A DNA stretch of 34,398 nt from Verrucomicrobiales bacterium (GCA_003140095.1 PLIU01000227.1:4393-38790), one strand, 5' to 3'; counted from the stretch's first letter, positions 21,401 to 30,285 are shown. The notes: generated from the letters alone by a model not told the origin. Numbers and translations: made by a program.

Positions 21401-21906
21401 TGTGATCATATGCTTTGGCCTTGTTCAACTTAAATCACTTTCAAGATTATTCACGCCAGAATACGCTGCCGCGCCATATATGCTTCGGATCACCCGCCGA
21501 AACCTTACAGGGAAAAATGAAGTCTTTCGGCGTGTGGCGGCCTTAGAGCGTGTCTTAACCGATTCGGTCTGGGCCGGCAGTTGTAAGGTTCTTCCCACAA
21601 ATCCGACATAATGAGAGGCCGAAATTGGGGAAGTCGATGCAACCATACGTTTTGCATTTCCGCCATAAATATGATAGTGTGCCATGTCTGTGGCGCTCAT
21701 GCGCCTGATCTTTGACATTTTGCGGTCGGGAATCCGGCCTGGCAAGGGTGCCCGGAAAAGCGGCTCCCCGATTACGGCGATGGGGCTGATTGGGTTGAAT
21801 ATGAGTTGCCGAAGTATGTTCATTAAGGCACACAAGCCTTGACCAGAGTCGCGGAGCGTCTGCGAACTGCGTGGTTTTCACGCATAACAGGCCCGTACGA
21901 CCAGGT
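21401..21906. other. Intergenic region between msrAB and the element
   Basis: No gene assigned. Two overlapping minus-strand frames of 97-136 codons exist but neither resembles a family, and their overlap suggests decayed coding or chance. The msrAB promoter must lie at its left edge. Confidence 0.4.
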
Positions 21907-21956
21907 GAGTCAAACCGAATCAAACCGAATCAAACCAAATCAAACCGAATCAAACC
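21907..21956. repeat. Five tandem 10-bp repeats at left edge of the element
   Basis: Five uninterrupted copies of the decamer NNNTCAAACC (21907-21916, 21917-21926, 21927-21936, 21937-21946, 21947-21956), mostly GAATCAAACC. The last copy is followed by TGCGG. The same unit recurs at 30011-30020, 30091-30120 and 30188-30207. One unit per helical turn would present binding sites on one DNA face. Confidence 0.85.
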
Positions 21957-22154
21957 TGCGGAGGTGGGGAAGGAACGTCCCGACCTGGCTGTGAAAGGTT
22001 GGAAAAGGTGGGGAAAGGCTTCAAACACAGGGATTTAAAGGGTGATAACACCTCAAGTTCACCCCCTCGATAACGAAATGGGTCTGATTTAAGGCAATCC
22101 CCATAATTGACAAGCCCCGTTTTTTGGAAAATTATCACCATCCGGTTTTTGGAG

Positions 22155-22190
22155 AGAAAAAGGGGGCACTAGTAAATTCACAGTGCCCCC
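22155..22190 (-). terminator. Rho-independent terminator for the transposase gene
   Basis: GGGGGCACT (22162-22170) pairs perfectly with AGTGCCCCC (22182-22190) over an 11-base loop. Read on the minus strand, the stem is followed by CCTTTTTCTC, a T-run. It lies 70 bases past the transposase stop. Confidence 0.85.
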
Positions 22191-22259
22191 AAAGTTGCAT
22201 GAAATCACCGCCAACCAATCAAGATCGCAATAATGCCCCATCCCGCGTGCTATTGAGGC

Positions 22260-24374
22260 TCAGGCAAGCGTTTGAAGTGCGGTTGGATGGATAGTGGCGC
22301 GGCGTCCCCCAGGCTTGTCCTGCTGCTCAGACGCTGTCTGAACTTGCAGCCAGTGCCGATACGCCCCGTTTTTCCAATTACTGACATTCTGGGCGCTGAG
22401 GGGGGAAGATTTAAACTCCCGCCGCAATATCTCCTTCACAGCGGCCAATCCGTTAAGCCATAAAAGGAGGCTATTTGCCACTTCGCCATCCCTGAGCCTG
22501 GAATTTAGCTCTTCACGGACGGCCAGCGGCAACCTGGCCACTTTTCCAAGACGGGTCGTGAAATCGACAGGCACAGGCGGGGCAGGCACGGCCTCCGCGC
22601 TGGCGTCGGTCGATTCTGTTCCTTGCACCACCTTTGACAAACCCCCTACCCCATCTCTCAATTCCCATTCCTGATACTTCATCTCCACTGATGCTTTCGC
22701 GACAGGACCGCCCAGGACGCCCCGCACAACACGGCGTAGCGCGGTGGCAGCCTGGCGCAGTTCCTGGATTCCACGTCCCCGGCCATCTGCGCCATGCCCC
22801 AGGACGGACTGAACGTAGGCCGTGGTTTCATTCGCTAGCGCGGCCACTCCCAGCACCTCGCCAGGCCTCCGCGTGCCCGCCGCCTGGTCAAGGACAACCG
22901 TGGCGCTGCACTGGGGTATATTGGGGTCGAAGTAACATTTGACCCGCGCGCCATGCAAGGGAAGCAGCCATGGGGCGCTAAACATAAACGGAACTCCAAG
23001 AGAATCGAATATCGGCACCCGGCCACCGACTGAATTTCCCCTGACTGTCCATGTTCTCACGAATGGCGAGAACAAAAAATCCGTCTCCGGCTCCAGGCGA
23101 CGGAGCGGCCGGGCCTGGACATCGGCCGCCCAGCGTTCATCTGGCACCCACCTGCCGTAGTTTTCGGAATCGACGATGTGATTATTGTGATCGGCGCAAA
23201 CCTCCTCAAAAGCCGCAACCGCATCCGTTAAGATGGGAAAGTGCGGCCGTGGGTCTCGCTCGCCGGCAATGCACGCCGCCAATACCCGGCTGGCGTCCCC
23301 GCCTTCGCCACGGAACCGGCCAACGCTTGCATCCGGGAAATGGCACGAAAGCCGGGTCCATAACGTGTTGAAAAGCCCTTCAATGAAGGGCTTCGAATGT
23401 GGAGAGTGAACCGCGATTCTACGCGCCCCCATAAGGTCAACCGCATTTGTGACCAGATTGGAGGCCCACACGCCTTTTTCCAACCGCCAGGCGCGCGGCA
23501 CTCCATGTTGCCTCACCACGCAGCGCAAAAGCGCCAGGACATCTTCCCCCCTGTAAGCCGACTTGGGCCGGGCGGTATAGGTAAAGCCCAAAATTTTGCG
23601 GCTGCCTACATCGATTGCAACAAGCCATTGCCATCGCCCAACCTTGACGCCATACTTTTCGCTGCACGGGCAACCGCGAATCTGCCAGGGAACCACGACT
23701 GGGAAGTTCACGGTTGAATCGTCACATTCGACCAAATCCCCGCCCTGAATAAAGTGCTTTTCCCCGGCCTCATCCTCCTGCCACATTTGCGAGCCCCACG
23801 CCGAAATATAATCCAGCGTTGCATCCCGCTTATTGCGGTGAAACCTGACGAATGGCGCGGCCACGGCGATATGCTTGGTGATGGAATCCGGCATGATCCG
23901 TTTGCGCGTTTGCGCGCGCGCCAGAATGCTCTCCGCCAGATCGGGCGGGCACGTTGGCAGCTTTTCCCCGTTCCCCGGCTGCCAGCCGGACTCAATGCAG
24001 ATGCTCGACAGCCGGCCCATCACCGCGTTGGGGCACTTCGGTAGAGCGACCGTCCGCCGAATCGCCTCCTGGATGCTTCCTCGGGTCCGGCTCAGGTTGG
24101 TGTTGAGGTAAAAAAACTTGCAAGATGGCAAAAACCACTGCGGCAAATCTTTGAAAAGCCGCCTGGCCGCGCCCATCTCGCGCCGTTCACGCATGAAAGC
24201 GGCGATACCATCGCGAGTAAAACGCGGATAGTTCCGGCAAAACCAAGACGGCGCGCGCCCCAGCACCTTCGCAGCCTGATTGCCCGATAAAAACCGTTCT
24301 TCTTTGAGCGCCTGCCACTGGCGGCACAGCGCGGCCGCCTTCGTGGCTGACTGGATATTGGATTTATTTTTCAT
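22260..24374 (-). CDS. MuA-like DDE transposase
   Basis: 704 residues, close to Mu A (663). An N-terminal HTH (GNQAAKVLGRAPSWFCR, about 31-47) precedes helical site-binding regions. The RNase H-like core carries VECDDSTVNF (Asp218 or Asp219, first catalytic position), followed by WQWLVAIDVGSRKILGF, which matches the equivalent DVRTRKILGW text of MuA. The second position reads WRLEKGVWAS, so Glu299 stands where MuA has Asp336. The third is SKPFIEGLFNTLW with Glu332. A beta-barrel-like and basic C-terminal region follows. The triad therefore reads D-E-E. It overlaps the RHH gene by four bases (ATGA) and ends at a strong terminator. It would cut and join the element ends; no MuB partner is visible. 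Confidence 0.85.
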   Translation of the reverse strand: MKNKSNIQSATKAAALCRQWQALKEERFLSGNQAAKVLGRAPSWFCRNYPRFTRDGIAAFMRERREMGAARRLFKDLPQWFLPSCKFFYLNTNLSRTRGSIQEAIRRTVALPKCPNAVMGRLSSICIESGWQPGNGEKLPTCPPDLAESILARAQTRKRIMPDSITKHIAVAAPFVRFHRNKRDATLDYISAWGSQMWQEDEAGEKHFIQGGDLVECDDSTVNFPVVVPWQIRGCPCSEKYGVKVGRWQWLVAIDVGSRKILGFTYTARPKSAYRGEDVLALLRCVVRQHGVPRAWRLEKGVWASNLVTNAVDLMGARRIAVHSPHSKPFIEGLFNTLWTRLSCHFPDASVGRFRGEGGDASRVLAACIAGERDPRPHFPILTDAVAAFEEVCADHNNHIVDSENYGRWVPDERWAADVQARPLRRLEPETDFLFSPFVRTWTVRGNSVGGRVPIFDSLGVPFMFSAPWLLPLHGARVKCYFDPNIPQCSATVVLDQAAGTRRPGEVLGVAALANETTAYVQSVLGHGADGRGRGIQELRQAATALRRVVRGVLGGPVAKASVEMKYQEWELRDGVGGLSKVVQGTESTDASAEAVPAPPVPVDFTTRLGKVARLPLAVREELNSRLRDGEVANSLLLWLNGLAAVKEILRREFKSSPLSAQNVSNWKNGAYRHWLQVQTASEQQDKPGGRRATIHPTALQTLA

Positions 24375-24601
24375 AGGCGGGAAATCCTCCTTGTGAAGTC
24401 TTTCGCGGCCTTCAGCAAACCCTCCGCGATTTCCGGGTCGTTTTCTTCAAAATACGAGACCATGCATGCGAGAAGGATTTTACGGATCATGGCGCTGAGG
24501 CTGATGCCTTCGTTTTTAGCGGCTTCAACCAAGCGCCGTTTTAGCGGAAGTGGAAGGTGCACCGAAACCCTAACCTTTGGGGTGGAACTGACTTGTTTCA
24601 T
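24371..24601 (-). CDS. Ribbon-helix-helix regulator upstream of transposase
   Basis: 76 residues. KVRVSVHLPLPLKRRLVEAAKNEGISLSAMIRKILLACMVSYF fits the CopG/Arc ribbon-helix-helix fold: a short beta strand for DNA contact, then two amphipathic helices. The C-terminal part is acidic and helical (EENDPEIAEGLLKAAKDF). It is coupled to the transposase by an ATGA overlap and so probably controls its own operon, perhaps the element's lysogeny-type switch. It faces a second, unrelated RHH gene across a shared 289-base promoter region. Confidence 0.75.
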   Translation of the reverse strand: MKQVSSTPKVRVSVHLPLPLKRRLVEAAKNEGISLSAMIRKILLACMVSYFEENDPEIAEGLLKAAKDFTRRISRL

Positions 24602-24890
24602 TTTGCTTCTCTTTCAAAAAGAACAATCCGAGCCAAAAGCGGCAAAGCTTGTCGCCCTCATGGGTATCCCCATTTCGGGCTATTTGACTCGGAAAGTTCG
24701 TTTTCTGCGTTGAGGCCAGCCCGCATATTACGGGTCCGAGAATTGGCCATCAGGCTTTTGCCAGCCTGACGTTGTGAATTTCACAGATAAGGGTCTGGAA
24801 GTCAAGCGTCATGAATATCTCACTCAAACACGCAAAACACGCAAAACACGAAAGACGCGGCGGCCTTGATGTGTCATAAAAGAGCATAAT
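24602..24890. promoter_or_regulatory. Divergent control region of the Mu-like element
   Basis: 289 bases between the two RHH genes. It carries four 9-bp tandem units at 24822-24857 (ACTCAAACA, CGCAAAACA twice, CGAAAGACG), close to the rightward gene. RHH proteins bind short direct repeats as tetramers, so this is a natural operator. A phrase CCCATTTCGGGC near 24668 recurs near 29849 at the other side of the element. Confidence 0.6.
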
Positions 24891-25079
24891 ATGAGTCGTG
24901 AGACGGCAATCGAAGAAGGCGAGTATTGGCGAATTGTGGTCCGGGTTGACCGCCGCCTGCTGAAGGCATTGGATGAAGAGGTTGTCCGGCTGGACTCTGA
25001 CCGCTCCAAAGTTCTCAGGGATTGCCTTCGCAAATTCCTTGGAACCAACGCGGCCACACAGGAAGTTTTATCAACATGA
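24891..25079 (+). CDS. Ribbon-helix-helix regulator, first gene of rightward operon
   Basis: 62 residues. The pattern EYWRIVVRVDRRLLKALDEEVVRLDSDRSKVLRDCLRKFL is a CopG-type ribbon-helix-helix: the strand WRIVVRVD, helix RRLLKALDEEVVRL, turn, and second helix SDRSKVLRDCLRKFL. It is preceded by the four 9-bp direct repeats at 24822-24857. Its stop overlaps the start of the next gene (ATGA), so it leads a run of coupled genes. It likely represses this operon, in opposition to or together with the RHH protein on the other strand. Confidence 0.7.
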   Translation: MSRETAIEEGEYWRIVVRVDRRLLKALDEEVVRLDSDRSKVLRDCLRKFLGTNAATQEVLST

Positions 25080-26089
25080 CACCAACTTTGACCCATCAAA
25101 AGGCCGCCCGCAGCACAGCCATCGAGACACGAGAATCTGGCGGGATGGTGGAAACTTTGACAGTTGAGCAATGGGCAGAAAGAGAGGCACCGGCGATCGC
25201 CAGACTGTCAGATCGATCCAACAACGCCAAAAACCATATTAGCCTCAGCCAGCGCCGGGAGGGCGACTATGTGCGCCAATGTATTCTCGCCGGCCAATCC
25301 TTGAGGGAATTATGTCAAGAATTATCTTCCGGCCACCGTGGCCGGAAGTTTAGTGTTGACGAAGAATCCGACCCTCTGCTTGGCGAATGGCTCCAAAGAG
25401 AGTGCCCAAAGATAACGGAAAGAACCGCTCGCAGATGGCGTGCCTGCGCGAGGCGCGTGGTGGCGCATTTAGCGGACTGCCACCCACTGCTTGCTCCCGT
25501 GAAGATCGAACTTGGCGATCGTGAACTTTATATAAGCGACGCCCTTCAGATGCCGCCGGATCAAAGCGGGGCAGCCGTCAAAGTAAAATACTATAGCAGA
25601 ATCGAAACCATCGCTCCGAACCTGCAAGATTTCATTGACAAGTTTCATGGATGGATCGCTGATAAAAAACTTTGCGAGCTTGCCGCCTCCGTCCTGGACG
25701 GTGAAAGAGACGCCAGCTCAATTACTCTGGTCACCAATGGAAAACTAAAAGGGGGTCATGGCGGCGAGGATAGGCGCGCCTACGCTCTCTTTGCAGCGCG
25801 ACACATGGAGAAAATGTGCCAGCATCTGAACGAATGGGCAAAGCTGCTCGATGATCCTGAACAGGAAACCGCAATGGTGGGCGTAATCCGCGCCATCCTT
25901 TTAGGTGATTTCTGTTCGCTCAGCCATAAAACAGGGACCTCGCGTGACTATTTTAAAAAGCACCCACAGGAGGCTCGCGCCCGTGTCTTTAGTCAGAAAT
26001 TTGGAGGTAAAGTATGGCCACAAAGGTTTTGTGACCTGCTCTTTGGGGTGCTCAAAGAGAGAGCGAAACAAAAAAAGGAGCTTAAATGA
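25076..26089 (+). CDS. Element-encoded protein with RTAxRW helix, 337 residues
   Basis: Family not recognised. It starts at ATG 25076 by ATGA overlap with the RHH gene. The N-terminal half contains GDYVRQCILAGQSLRELCQEL, later GEWLQRECPKITERTARRWRACARRVV, which resembles the pattern seen in phage DUF3102-like proteins (G-x-x-L-x-E-x-K ... WL ... S-x-RTA-x-x-Y). The RTARRW helix may contact DNA. The C-terminal half is helical and ends in a basic segment (LKERAKQKKELK). No Walker motif is present, so it is not a MuB-type ATPase even though it sits at the early-gene position. It could be a replication or transposition accessory factor; this is inference from position. Confidence 0.65.
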   Translation: MTPTLTHQKAARSTAIETRESGGMVETLTVEQWAEREAPAIARLSDRSNNAKNHISLSQRREGDYVRQCILAGQSLRELCQELSSGHRGRKFSVDEESDPLLGEWLQRECPKITERTARRWRACARRVVAHLADCHPLLAPVKIELGDRELYISDALQMPPDQSGAAVKVKYYSRIETIAPNLQDFIDKFHGWIADKKLCELAASVLDGERDASSITLVTNGKLKGGHGGEDRRAYALFAARHMEKMCQHLNEWAKLLDDPEQETAMVGVIRAILLGDFCSLSHKTGTSRDYFKKHPQEARARVFSQKFGGKVWPQRFCDLLFGVLKERAKQKKELK

Positions 26090-26493
26090 CGGCCATTCAA
26101 TGCCCCCGGAAATCCAATCGGCCTTCGACGGCTGAGGTCCGCGATGGCGTCATGTCCGCCCTGATTGAGTGGAAGATAGCCTTCCAGCCTTCCGAGGAGA
26201 ATTGGACCGCTTTATTCGAGGCGCAAGAAGCCTACTGCAAAATGCTGGTCAATTATCGGAACGGCCTTTTCAACCGCGATTTGGCCTTTCGCCGCTTTTG
26301 CTGGAAACTGGAATTGTCCTTCATTTTCGGAGGTGAATCTCCGCTTTTGCCCGGCGAACCACCGCTGGTGTTTCCAGCCTGGCCGGCCTTTATGCGCAAT
26401 TGCGTGCAGGCCACGCTCAAGAAGCACGGTTTCCAGCTTCGGTTCCAATCGCGCCTATCTGAACGGAACCGGGAATACTCACTCGCCACATGA
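26086..26493 (+). CDS. Hypothetical element protein, 135 residues
   Basis: Not recognised. It overlaps the preceding gene by four bases (ATGA). The helical, Trp- and Phe-rich sequence includes SALIEWKIAFQPSEENWTALFEAQEAYCKML and FRRFCWKLELSFIF, then a proline-rich turn (GGESPLLPGEPPLVFPAWPAFMRN) and a basic tail. It is probably a soluble DNA- or protein-binding factor of the early operon, but no motif supports a specific role. A four-base overlap with another short frame (26490) continues the coupled chain. Confidence 0.6.
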   Translation: MTAIQCPRKSNRPSTAEVRDGVMSALIEWKIAFQPSEENWTALFEAQEAYCKMLVNYRNGLFNRDLAFRRFCWKLELSFIFGGESPLLPGEPPLVFPAWPAFMRNCVQATLKKHGFQLRFQSRLSERNREYSLAT

Positions 26494-26624
26494 TCGGCAT
26501 GAACAAAATCAACTTGCCATTTTGCCTCTTCCCGCGCGAAACCGCGAAGCGCGGGTGTTGCTGCGGCGGCTGGAAAGCAAGGTCCGGCCGCCGCTTTAAT
26601 CACACAATCAAACTAAAATTATGA
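26490..26624 (+). CDS. Possible 44-residue protein in the coupled chain
   Basis: A short frame whose ATG overlaps the stop of the previous gene and whose TGA overlaps the next ATG, both as ATGA. This placement is the only support. The sequence has a CCCGG cluster and a basic tail, without a recognisable domain. It may simply be spacer DNA. Confidence 0.3.
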   Translation: MIGMNKINLPFCLFPRETAKRGCCCGGWKARSGRRFNHTIKLKL

Positions 26625-26878
26625 ATCAGAAACCTTGGACCCAGGAAGTCTGCGACTCACCCACAACTTTGAGACCCTACTCCGCGCCGGTCGCGGATTC
26701 CGATGCGCTTGGATTGCCGGGCAGGTTCGGCGGTTTGGGAAGCGGGCACGGCAATCCGGAACCCGCCATCGTCAGCGGCAGTCTGCCTTACATTCCGGAT
26801 GGCGGCCTTACTCCGCTTTCACCCAGTCAATCAGCCGCTGGACCGCGCACAGATGGGCAAGCTATCGATGATTATTAA
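26621..26878 (+). CDS. Hypothetical element protein, 85 residues
   Basis: Not recognised. It is rich in Gly, Pro and Ser (LGLPGRFGGLGSGHGNPEP, SLPYIPDGGLTPLSPSQSAAGP) and predicted disordered, with no hydrophobic core. Its ATG overlaps the TGA of the preceding short frame. A longer frame in another register (from 26703) overlaps it, but that one's natural start is at 26883 or 26868, so the two genes probably follow each other. It might be a linker-like or scaffold-like phage protein. Confidence 0.45.
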   Translation: MNQKPWTQEVCDSPTTLRPYSAPVADSDALGLPGRFGGLGSGHGNPEPAIVSGSLPYIPDGGLTPLSPSQSAAGPRTDGQAIDDY

Positions 26879-26882
26879 GCCT

Positions 26883-27743
26883 ATGCAAACCACCATATCA
26901 ATCCCAATGCCCGTCGCCGCCAGGGGCGGGGAACCGCTCTATATAGATCCGCCGGTCAGGGACGCGGCGCCCCGCATCGTGTTCGCCGGTCACGGCCAGG
27001 CGGTGGAGTTCCTCGATGGCGATGCCTATCTCGATTACCGTTTGACCACTCCAGGCAGCGCCACCCGCTTTGCCGACGAAGCCACCGCCGAAGCCGCCGC
27101 CGAATCGTTGCGCGGACTAGGTTTGACCGCCTTCGTCGGCACAATTAAGACTGACGGTCCAAAAGCGTTCCGCGAACTGCAAGAGGCCAATGGGAAGGGC
27201 GTCGATCCGTTGCAGGCCAAGGGATACATCGTCTTGGCCGGCCGGTCCGCAGTCCAATTCATTGACCAACCCGGCGCGGGACCGGGTTTCAGAATTGGCG
27301 GCGTGGAGCAAGCCACCAAATTCACCACGGAAGCCGACGCTTTTGGCCGGACCGCCGCCTTGCAAATCATGGGGTGCGATGTCTCCGTAGTCGGACTCGA
27401 TCAATCGGGCCGCCCGCTACCTGGAAAAAAGGTCTGGCTCCTTTTCGTCGATGGCCGGCCGGCGGAACTATTGCCCACGGGGCGTTTTAACCTGCTGACG
27501 CTATTCCGAGTGACCGATCAGGAGAACGCTTCAAGGTTCCCAACGCGAGACGCCGCGTATGCCAGCGGGAATCTTTTGCGCAACAAGGGCCACATTTGCA
27601 TCGCCGGGCGCATGGGAGACGATGGGGAACATCTCTATTCCAAGGAGATTGAGCGAAGGCGCGAGGCTCAAATACCAAAAACTTACGTTGGCGTAATACA
27701 AATCGGAGGATCAAATCCACATAGGAGGGCAATTTCCAGATGA
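26883..27743 (+). CDS. Protein with three tandem copies of a novel ~60-residue domain
   Basis: 286 residues from ATG 26883 (ATG 26868 is an alternative, overlapping the previous gene). No known family recognised. Three internal units share a pattern: a strand with (V/L)(F/L)xxG(R/H)xxxxF, a loop, then (R/K)F-x-(D/T)-x-x-x-A-x-x-(A/T)-A-x-x-L-x-x-x-G, and a closing beta strand. They lie at about residues 30-88, 114-172 and 184-243, with cores TRFADEATAEAAAESLRGLG, TKFTTEADAFGRTAALQIMG and SRFPTRDAAYASGNLLRNKG. A fourth copy is the body of the next gene, whose start overlaps this stop (ATGA). The fold is probably a small alpha/beta sandwich; the role is unknown. Confidence 0.65.
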   Translation: MQTTISIPMPVAARGGEPLYIDPPVRDAAPRIVFAGHGQAVEFLDGDAYLDYRLTTPGSATRFADEATAEAAAESLRGLGLTAFVGTIKTDGPKAFRELQEANGKGVDPLQAKGYIVLAGRSAVQFIDQPGAGPGFRIGGVEQATKFTTEADAFGRTAALQIMGCDVSVVGLDQSGRPLPGKKVWLLFVDGRPAELLPTGRFNLLTLFRVTDQENASRFPTRDAAYASGNLLRNKGHICIAGRMGDDGEHLYSKEIERRREAQIPKTYVGVIQIGGSNPHRRAISR

Positions 27744-28024
27744 ACACGGAATTTCAGGCTAAGACACCCACTCGAAAGTTCATCCTGCTCTTGAATGGCC
27801 AGCCCCTGTCGTTTGGCAGCCACCCATTCAAGCTTTCCTGGGAAGCGGTGGAAGTCTGCGAGGCAGATACTTATCCCGAACGCGCGACCGCGTTGCGAGT
27901 GGCAGAAAATATGTTTCATCGTGGAACGGCAGTTACCATTAAAGAGCTTTCTCCAGACGAAGCCGCCGCATCGAAGCCAAGATCAAAAAAAATCTACACC
28001 CTGCGGGAGGCCATGGCTGAATGA
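27740..28024 (+). CDS. Single-copy version of the novel domain, 94 residues
   Basis: The body (about 13-70) reads KFILLLNGQPLSFGSHPFKL, then DTYPERATALRVAENMFHRG and AVTIKEL. This matches the repeat unit of the preceding protein in length and in the order strand, helix with spaced alanines, glycine, strand. The C-terminal tail is Ala-, Ser- and Lys-rich. It is coupled to both neighbours by ATGA overlaps. A solitary domain beside a three-domain protein suggests gene duplication within the element, with the two proteins perhaps assembling together. Confidence 0.6.
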   Translation: MNTEFQAKTPTRKFILLLNGQPLSFGSHPFKLSWEAVEVCEADTYPERATALRVAENMFHRGTAVTIKELSPDEAAASKPRSKKIYTLREAMAE

Positions 28025-28251
28025 GCTTCACCCCTCCAAAACCCATCTGGATCACCGTCCAAGGAGGCGTAACCTATACAAGTCCAGGTGGGCCGTCTGG
28101 CTACGTGCTCCCCAGTGGTTTCGGGTGGCTTCGCTTAGCTGATAATGCTGTCCAAGCCAACTACAGCCCTCTTGGTGGAATCGTCAAATTGACCCGCACT
28201 TTCATTGGCTGCTCCGGTGGTTGGGACCCGGACCTTTACCCGCCCGCATAA
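28021..28251 (+). CDS. Hypothetical small beta-rich protein, 76 residues
   Basis: Not recognised. Glycine-, proline- and aromatic-rich (KPIWITVQGGVTYTSPGGPSGY, LPSGFGWLRLADNAVQ, FIGCSGGWDPDLYPP), predicted all-beta and soluble. It overlaps the previous gene by four bases and ends 5 bases before the gpI-like start. The position just before a prohead-protease-like gene fits a minor structural or regulatory phage protein, but no motif supports this. Confidence 0.5.
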   Translation: MSFTPPKPIWITVQGGVTYTSPGGPSGYVLPSGFGWLRLADNAVQANYSPLGGIVKLTRTFIGCSGGWDPDLYPPA

Positions 28252-28255
28252 AGAA

Positions 28256-28948
28256 ATGAATATTCAAACTCTTGCCGCATCCCGCCAGCCAGGCGATCCA
28301 CTGCCAGTCAGGCTTCAACTGTTCAAGCTTGGAGAAAACCTCTCCAACCAAGGCCCGTTCATCGTCGATGACCAATCCATTGCCGAACTCGCCGCCAATC
28401 AGCGTTTGATTGGTCGCGAGCGCGTCCCCATTGGTTTCGAGCACAATATCGACGAAGGCTCAGCGGAATACCTCAATACCAAGGAGCCTCGCCCGATTGC
28501 CGGCATGGGGACGGTTGAGGCGGTGCCCGGCAAGGGCATTTTTCTCACTGCAATAGGATGGAACAAAGTTGGTGCCGATACCATCGATCATTATGAAGAC
28601 CTTTCACCCACGCCCATCTTCGACAAGAAGACGCGCCGAGTGCTAGGCATAGCGAGTGCCAGTTTGACCCGCACCGGCTCCGTCTATGGATTGACGCTTG
28701 AAAATGCGGAGGCCGCCGCACTTACCTCAATAATGCCTTGGCCTTTCCCAGCGCGCCCGCGCGCGGATTCCCTGACTGGCATTTCGAGAACGGTAGCCGC
28801 CTTTGAGCGCCAGAACGCGCGCAACAAAATAGTCGCCTCCAGGCTCGCGGCAAAGGCCGTGCGCAATCCAATTGACCCGACGTTGCAAGGCATGGCGCGC
28901 GTATTGGCCGTTTTTGAACAGGCAAATGCTGGCGGGGAGGAGGTTTAA
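28256..28948 (+). CDS. Mu gpI-like prohead protease/scaffold protein
   Basis: 230 residues from ATG 28256. The core VPIGFEHNIDEGSAEYLNTKEPRPIAGMGTVEAVPGKGIFLTAIGWNKVGADTI followed by YEDLSPTPIFDKKTRRVLGIASASLTRTG matches the family pattern of phage Mu I proteins: (F/Y)-x-H-N near the start, P-x-x-G-x-G, W-x-x-x-G, Y-x-x-L-S-P-x-F, L-x-x-A-x-L-T. These serve as head maturation protease and, through the C-terminal part, as internal scaffold. Mu gpI is about 360 residues, so this copy is shorter, mainly at the C-terminus. It is the only head-morphogenesis-type gene in the element; the major capsid gene that normally follows is absent. Confidence 0.65.
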   Translation: MNIQTLAASRQPGDPLPVRLQLFKLGENLSNQGPFIVDDQSIAELAANQRLIGRERVPIGFEHNIDEGSAEYLNTKEPRPIAGMGTVEAVPGKGIFLTAIGWNKVGADTIDHYEDLSPTPIFDKKTRRVLGIASASLTRTGSVYGLTLENAEAAALTSIMPWPFPARPRADSLTGISRTVAAFERQNARNKIVASRLAAKAVRNPIDPTLQGMARVLAVFEQANAGGEEV

Positions 28949-28951
28949 AAT

Positions 28952-29218
28952 ATGTCCATCCCTCCAAAGAGCGAATCAAAATCCTTGGGAGTATTTGTGC
29001 CCGTCCCACCCATGACCCCACAGCAAGCTCTGGAGTCCTGGCAGACTTCCAGGGAGACGATCAGTGCTGCCTTGGACACCATCCGCGCCAGCAAGACACA
29101 AATTCAGGCGGGATTCTATGCGATAAAACATGCTGGCGAAAAATTCCTGTCCCCGGATGATCTGCGCGCCCGTGCAAAGAGCTCTGGTCAATATCGGTAT
29201 GGCTACCGCTGCGCTTGA
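28952..29218 (+). CDS. Hypothetical element protein, 88 residues
   Basis: Not recognised. It has the best ribosome binding site in the region, GGGGAGGAGG at 28933-28942, and starts 3 bases after the gpI-like stop. The sequence PMTPQQALESWQTSRETISAALDTIRASKTQIQAGFYAIKHAGEKFLSPDDLRARA is largely helical and probably forms a short coiled coil. It overlaps the next short frame by 20 bases. It could be the remnant of a longer scaffold-associated gene, or a genuine small protein. Confidence 0.45.
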   Translation: MSIPPKSESKSLGVFVPVPPMTPQQALESWQTSRETISAALDTIRASKTQIQAGFYAIKHAGEKFLSPDDLRARAKSSGQYRYGYRCA

Positions 29219-29414
29219 TCACAGCATTGGATCAATGGGCCTCCTTGTTGATGTCATACAAGCGGCGTTGGTGGCGTTGGCAACGCCTGCCGATGCCGAT
29301 ATGTTATTGGATGTGCTGCGGGCCTCACTGTCGATGCCTGCCGATGCGCCTTCAAACCAAGGCAGCCAAGCGGCGTCGGCTGGAGAAACCAACCTCCAAA
29401 ACGAACCTTTATAA
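29199..29414 (+). CDS. Hypothetical small protein, 71 residues
   Basis: Starts at ATG 29199 inside the end of the previous frame. It is helical and Ala/Leu-rich (MATAALDHSIGSMGLLVDVIQAALVALATPADADMLLDVLRASLS) with a Gln/Ser/Ala-rich tail. No family was recognised. It may instead be the continuation of the preceding gene after a frameshift, since the helical character continues across the switch near 29200. It ends just before the IS21-like text. Confidence 0.35.
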   Translation: MATAALDHSIGSMGLLVDVIQAALVALATPADADMLLDVLRASLSMPADAPSNQGSQAASAGETNLQNEPL

Positions 29415-29520
29415 TTTCTCATTTGACCGATTTTTTGGTGCTATTTGTGGCTTCGTTTGATGCTTTGCCGGGTTTTTCGCCCGGCTGGCGACACAGGCTG
29501 AGAATTTCACACTTGACCAA
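29415..29520. repeat. Repeat-bearing segment, possible IS21-type scar
   Basis: Contains ATTTCTCATTTGACC (about 29415-29430) and a related AATTTCACACTTGACC (about 29504-29519), separated by a hairpin GCCGGG-TTTTTC-GCCCGGC. Repeated TTGACC-ended motifs are typical of IS21-type ends, but no transposase is present. The element's gene run stops exactly here. Confidence 0.35.
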
Positions 29521-29550
29521 GTGCCCGCCGCAGTGATACAAATATCAGCG

Positions 29551-29748
29551 ATGCCAGACCGAATACAGCCCGATCCGGACGCACTGCAGGACCTCTTGAG
29601 TCAGCCAGCCGTGACGCGGTTAGAGGTTCTGAGGCAAGTCCGGGAGTCGGTGCCACTTCATCCGAATGCGCAACGCGAATTGGAGCAACTCGAATTGGAA
29701 CAAAAGAACCTCGTTTCTCCGCGCCAGTGCCGCGAGCCATCGGCGTAG
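29551..29748 (+). CDS. Possible short helical protein
   Basis: 65 codons from ATG 29551 (an upstream GTG at 29521 would add ten). The sequence PDRIQPDPDALQDLLSQPAVTRLEVLRQVRESVPLHPNAQRELEQLELEQK is helical and charged and could be a coiled coil. No family was recognised and no strong ribosome binding site is present. Codon use is not distinctive. It lies between the IS21-like scar and the repeat-rich right edge, so it may be a leftover gene end. Confidence 0.3.
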   Translation: MPDRIQPDPDALQDLLSQPAVTRLEVLRQVRESVPLHPNAQRELEQLELEQKNLVSPRQCREPSA

Positions 29749-30090
29749 CGCCTGCGACGGCTGGAAAATGTCGGTTGTTTCGTCATTTCCAACCTTGAAA
29801 ATGGGCCGATTTGCTACTTTTATCACCTTACCATTTTCTCGCCGCTACCCATTTTCAATACCCATTTCGGGCCATGCGCAGACCCATTGCGCTTGGATGC
29901 GGGTTTGCCCGGAATGGGCGCATTCTTGAACGACAAAATGGGACGCATAGGACCAAGGGGACGAATGGGACAGTTGCGGCCGGGTCAAGCCCAACAAGCC
30001 TAATCAAGGTAAATCAAACCTGCGCGGGGGCAAGACAAGCTGAAAGCTGAAGGCTCAAAGATGAAGCTACCAGGCAACGTCACAGTCGCA

Positions 30091-30120
30091 CAGTCAAACC
30101 CAGTCAAACCTGGTCAAACA
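30091..30120. repeat. Decamer array, right edge (first block)
   Basis: CAGTCAAACC, CAGTCAAACC, TGGTCAAACA in direct tandem, the same NNNTCAAACC unit and orientation as the left array at 21907-21956. Confidence 0.8.
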
Positions 30121-30187
30121 CAGGCGCTCGCAGGAGTCAGAACAAATTAAAAGCGGCCCGCTTTGCGATCTGCTCATCCCTCCCGAA

Positions 30188-30207
30188 AGGTCAAGCCTGG
30201 TCAAACC
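30188..30207. repeat. Decamer array, right edge (second block)
   Basis: AGGTCAAGCC followed by TGGTCAAACC, two tandem copies of the NNNTCAAACC unit, the last before chromosomal sequence. Confidence 0.75.
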
Positions 30208-30285
30208 ATAAAAATTGAACATGAGGTTTTGGTTAGGTCGTGACTTCGATTTCAGGAGGGGGTACGCTGTGCTGTTCGCATTGCT

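Follow-up and report, generated by a model that had tools for sequence, protein, structure and literature searches.

How does a Mu-type transposase choose its target when no MuB partner gene lies beside its own? This question is raised by an element of about 7.5-7.9 kb in a 34,398-nucleotide stretch of DNA (the window; GCA_003140095.1, PLIU01000227.1:4393-38790) from a Verrucomicrobiales bacterium whose draft genome of 7.8 Mb, in 515 contigs, is 89% complete. The element carries a MuA-type transposase, two ribbon-helix-helix (RHH) proteins and a gpI-like protease in a compact, intact gene set, and it lies between the two halves of a host array of TCAAACC repeats. In phage Mu, MuB captures the target DNA and the C-terminal region of MuA contacts MuB. 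The explanation that we favour, with a probability of roughly 0.45, is that the element is a compact Mu-derived transposon in which MuB-dependent target choice was replaced by a captured array-binding domain. A wider form of this proposal, put forward as a tentative possibility, is that a Mu-family transposase exchanged MuB for a captured sequence-specific domain and targets a phased array, with an apparently undescribed module of orphan genes and arrays behind it.

The transposase (704 amino acids; 22260-24374, minus strand) matches the PHROG 310 transposase family with an E-value of 5.6e-21, profile matches of the element's genes being judged by Pfam curated cut-offs and PHROG E-values. Alignment with five relatives showed conservation of the acidic residues D218/D219, D255 and E332, and this bears out the MuA-type enzyme named in an earlier annotation of this DNA (the original prediction). 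That annotation overlooked a domain added at the C-terminus (residues 606-681; 22332-22559, minus strand), which matches a Gp27/small-terminase family of proteins of about 240 amino acids, one of them encoded directly before the large terminase in a Mu-like prophage of genome G180. The PHROG small terminase profile was matched by 17 of 20 family members (best 5.1e-6) and Pfam Phage_Mu_Gp27 by 8 of the 20 (best 2.3e-4), while the window domain alone gave a weak PHROG match (E 0.09) and no Pfam match. An AlphaFold2 model of the domain is confidently helical, with a mean pLDDT (predicted local distance difference test score) of 82.5 and values above 90 across most of the domain; among viral folds it comes closest to a DUF3486 protein, although the E-value of that match is not significant, and a fold search of the PDB with the domain gave no significant match. 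The fusion starts at the domain's own start with the frame kept, and the element contains no neighbouring large terminase for it. The domain was absent from every other transposase aligned, and no second fused transposase gene turned up when 320 genomes from the order were searched. Two candidates, L016 and L017, were rejected because their upstream match proved to be a weak alignment lying before the genes' own starts.

Close relatives of the transposase, at 36-44% identity, belong to Mu-like phages (G180, locus L045; G319, locus L160; and the IMG/VR contigs L241-L247). In seven of them (L045, L160, L241, L242, L243, L245 and L247) the gene immediately after the transposase encodes a MuB-like ATPase; this gene follows about 250 bp further on in L246, and in L244 the MuB match overlaps the transposase frame. 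The element departs from this plan in having no MuB and in carrying a gene for a 337-residue protein on the other strand than in the phages. Pfam and PHROG profile searches gave no match to MuB, terminase, portal, capsid, tail or lysis families among the element's genes, as the original prediction had stated for all of these except terminase. In the G180 prophage the protease gene is followed by a capsid gene, with terminase and portal genes beside them; the structural remnants in the element are the protease and a 76-residue piece only. Since close relatives carry full phage gene sets, the element is a derivative of such phages. The truncation just after gpI that had been proposed was not seen. 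The earlier annotation had also treated the placing of genes on opposite strands as an oddity. A small terminase or portal gene lies on the strand opposite to the transposase in L245, L246, L248 and L250, and two divergent operons are therefore normal in this phage group.

Descent from such phages raises the alternative that the locus is a decayed Mu-like prophage. MuB and the structural genes would then have been lost through deletions and a rearrangement, and the fusion would be the scar left where the transposase was joined to a small terminase gene. One of the phages (L242 with L272) has these two genes on the same strand about 9 kb apart, so that a deletion could fuse them; the element is single copy, no terminase match was found in the genome, and the gpI-like, 337-residue and 76-residue proteins have phage homologues. 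A scar does not readily explain why the fusion begins in frame at the domain's own start, nor why the 337-residue gene is on the strand opposite to the phages. In a tree of 73 columns, moreover, the fused domain adjoins an orphan (97/89) within a mainly orphan group rather than the phage terminases. Decay also does not predict a position in an array associated with the same family, and on balance we regard it as rather unlikely.

Within the Gp27/small-terminase family, a large terminase lies near 26 of 27 viral members versus 8 of 73 genomic members, leaving 65 genomic genes and one viral gene with none in reach. When 24 genes of the family were compared, TCAAACC was the top enriched 7-mer around their 3' ends (14 of 24, p about 1e-12), with 25 sense versus 1 antisense sites. 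Across 75 Verrucomicrobiota loci (L166-L240), close TCAAACC pairs occurred in 23; their spacings were 10, 20 or 40 bp in 33 of 33 cases, all were sense with no antisense pairs, and all lay 663-982 bp past the domain start. The sites occur in each of the three reading frames, both before and after the stop codon, so the constraint on spacing appears to act on the DNA rather than on the protein; 10 bp is about one helical turn. No close pairs were found in 37 viral loci (508 kb), and a role as a phage packaging site was rejected, TCAAACC being absent near all 27 viral small-terminase genes. TCAAACC doublets were present in 20 of 40 genomes with the domain versus 18 of 253 without it (Fisher p 2.6e-10), an approximate count in that it was made among the candidates listed per genome, and one taken over genomes that share ancestry. 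Where relatives in the public collection bear a name, they are Verrucomicrobiota, mainly of the Limisphaerales/Pedosphaera type, together with other metagenome assemblies.

In the element's own genome, 686 TCAAACC doublets were counted versus 0 in a reversed control, and the arrays form about 180 clusters that occupy 0.8-1.7% of the genome. The orphan small-terminase-like genes and their 3' TCAAACC arrays point to an apparently undescribed gene-and-repeat module across Verrucomicrobiota. The module draws on a family of phage packaging proteins and may be a more general finding than the element itself. At two loci (L097 and L104) a truncated orphan gene starts just upstream of an array, as if arrays outlast genes. 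Copies of the orphan family on four contigs of the own genome (C45, C507, C107 and C289) are cut at their 3' side by contig ends, as expected if arrays break the assembly.

Parts of such an array lie on both sides of the element. On the left, 21616-21983 (plus strand) is half of an interspersed host repeat, consisting of the array leader and first part with five TCAAACC sites (21910, 21920, 21930, 21940 and 21950); it has 85 matches in the own genome, none of which, apart from the locus itself, continues past 21983, and the coverage profile agrees. On the right, 29911-30214 (plus strand) corresponds to the later part of the array, with TCAAACC sites at 30014, 30094, 30104 and 30201; this half is defined by 66 own-genome matches and by the coverage profile. 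Both parts are found together, uninterrupted, at locus L136. The flanks are two halves of one repeat, which confines the insert to about 21984-29910, inside the limits of 21907-30207 first given for the element, which had taken in host DNA. Most simply read, the element inserted within a TCAAACC array. The leader (21616-21908) contains a conserved hairpin, GCGTG-gtttt-CACGC, common to many arrays, and Rfam searches found no known RNA in the leader or the arrays.

A candidate target duplication, GGCTG, stands at 21987-21991, followed by TG, and again at 29496-29500, preceded by CA; no other 5-bp match bounded by TG..CA occurs in the area searched, where chance would give about 1 such match overall and about 0.1 with the left edge fixed by the repeat. 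The candidate element would then run from TGAAAGG to GACACA (21992-29495), with its right edge between 29495 and about 29902. Array halves that flank the element in one orientation might instead be the element's own ends, with solo arrays such as L136, which contains both halves, as internally deleted derivatives. The halves are different parts of the repeat and not inverted copies, phased arrays accompany orphans in many genomes that yielded no fused transposase, and the own genome has about 180 clusters versus one fused transposase, which together make this origin extremely improbable.

These observations can be joined in a simple model. The transposase keeps its DDE core, lacks a MuB partner gene beside it, and has acquired as a C-terminal addition the DNA-binding domain found in the orphan Gp27/small-terminase-like family. 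In the model, the added domain would bind phased TCAAACC repeats and tether the transpososome to the array, and this tethering would pick the target and so substitute for MuB. A position inside a TCAAACC array is what the targeting model predicts. Binding of TCAAACC by the fused domain, its steering of insertion and continued mobility of the element are all presumed in this model, and targeting of the arrays is inferred from one insertion.

Several findings weigh against the model. The element is a single insertion and no second copy was found, which falls short of the several independent insertions in the repeat expected of a REP-targeting insertion sequence. The arrays make up 0.8-1.7% of the genome, and perhaps 5-12% of its intergenic DNA by our estimate, so that little weight can be put on the position by itself. 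A group II intron, recognised by an Rfam match, lies within another array (L121, 2037-2687; own-genome contig C49), so that a mere tolerance of insertions by arrays may suffice. On the right, the edge stays uncertain because the candidate duplication leaves 29501-29901 unaccounted for, a stretch that is single copy in the genome and holds no array sequence and one open reading frame of 75 codons (29521-29748). End-to-end similarity or terminal inverted repeats between the edges were sought, and the best match was no better than in shuffled sequences. The tree of the fused domain rests on 73 columns, and the failure to find a MuB match in the own genome comes from a single query of a genome that is 89% complete.

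The intron within another array, the abundance of the arrays and the failure to find end sites for the element would also fit a real fusion with a different function (autoregulation, transpososome assembly or end binding, for instance) in an element that landed neutrally in tolerant intergenic repeats. Neutral landing leaves the missing MuB to one side and requires a coincidence between the family of the captured domain and the repeat that was hit, and we consider it unlikely. If the targeting model is correct, the element shows in nature how fusion to a DNA-binding domain can retarget a Mu-type transposase, and it offers a short testable target sequence.

The remaining genes show how compact the element is. 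The first RHH regulator (24371-24601, minus strand; Pfam RHH_1, 2e-5) overlaps the transposase start and the second (24891-25079, plus strand; RHH_1, 2.3e-4) opens the rightward operon; both score above the Pfam cut-off, and the prediction of two such proteins, one per strand, was confirmed. All of the following genes are on the plus strand. The gene for the 337-residue protein (25076-26089) has homologues just upstream of the transposase at six loci in phage relatives (E 1.4e-5 to 7e-16). It is followed by an intact reading frame for 135 residues that overlaps its neighbour and has no family match of note (26086-26493), one for 85 residues that overlaps the next start (26621-26878), one for 291 residues (26868-27743), for which a longer start at 26703 is possible, and one for 94 residues with a ribosome-binding site (27740-28024). 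Internal repeats shared by the 94- and 291-residue proteins were considered and found to be unsupported. The 76-residue protein (28021-28251) resembles the C-terminal part of a protein whose gene lies close to one end of the G180 prophage, its final stretch (L043, 4274-5008; E 7.4e-8). Downstream of the protease gene are intact frames for 88 residues, with a ribosome-binding site (28952-29218), and for 80 residues, overlapping the former (29172-29414), and then a hairpin, GCCGGG...CCCGGC, 3' of the last gene at about 29468-29486. No close copies of the transposase, the protease or the 291-residue protein were found in viral contigs, nor of the transposase and protease in phage records.

All genes of the element are intact and overlap or nearly touch, with good ribosome-binding sites on most, an arrangement that also speaks against decay. 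The original prediction had placed a truncation just after gpI, at an IS21-like scar at 29415-29520. Two intact small genes and the hairpin come after gpI, and the supposed scar occurs once in the genome and shows no sign of an insertion sequence, being the non-coding end of the operon with its hairpin. Truncation at that point is further contradicted by a gene order unlike that of the related phages, with MuB missing behind the transposase and the extra domain fused there.

The gpI-like prohead protease (230 amino acids; 28256-28948) withstood profile comparison, scoring 30.5 bits against Pfam Mu-like_Pro (cut-off 25.2) and 9.9e-7 against the PHROG head maturation protease, with homologues in phage loci at 1.1e-34 (L272) and 1.2e-20 (L042). 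In alignment the conserved His and Ser positions of these homologues are retained, and the protein consists of the protease part alone, without the C-terminal part of about 100-130 residues found in the phage homologues. Satellites that redirect packaging through their own small terminase are established, and a protease lacking its extension, together with a second head- or packaging-related part retained without capsid genes, could point to a phage satellite that interferes with a helper's packaging and head maturation. No large terminase of matching type was found in the genome, a weak negative that comes from one terminase query; the domain is fused to the transposase with the rest of the small terminase missing; and the phage copies of the family lack a TCAAACC array, so that nothing marks the repeats as a packaging site. 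A satellite role is accordingly very unlikely. Of the earlier choice between a satellite and a truncated prophage, what holds is the description of a compact Mu-like element without structural genes, and neither option was established.

The element resembles phage Mu and Mu-like phages in its MuA-type DDE transposase, in the regulators placed between divergent operons and in its gpI-like protease. It differs from them in lacking MuB, terminase and a structural gene set, in the extra C-terminal DNA-binding domain and in its length of about 7.5-7.9 kb. For the orphan module, the nearest parallel is with REP-associated transposases (RAYT), for which pairs of gene and repeat are reportedly known. 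As there, a widespread gene goes with a flanking repeat of its own that recurs in hundreds of copies elsewhere in a genome; unlike there, the gene encodes a Gp27/small-terminase-like DNA-binding protein and not a tyrosine transposase. Among open-licence papers, none was found that describes phased arrays beside orphan genes of the small-terminase type, or a fusion of this kind in a Mu transposase. For the element itself, comparison can be made with insertion sequences that target REP/BIME repeats, such as ISPpu9 and ISPpu10 (PMC1525189), and the likeness is that of a mobile element inside a high-copy intergenic repeat. The present case differs in the class of its transposase, in being known from a single insertion, and in that the repeat forms a direct array phased at 10 bp and is linked with a family of DNA-binding genes, a domain of which is fused to the transposase.

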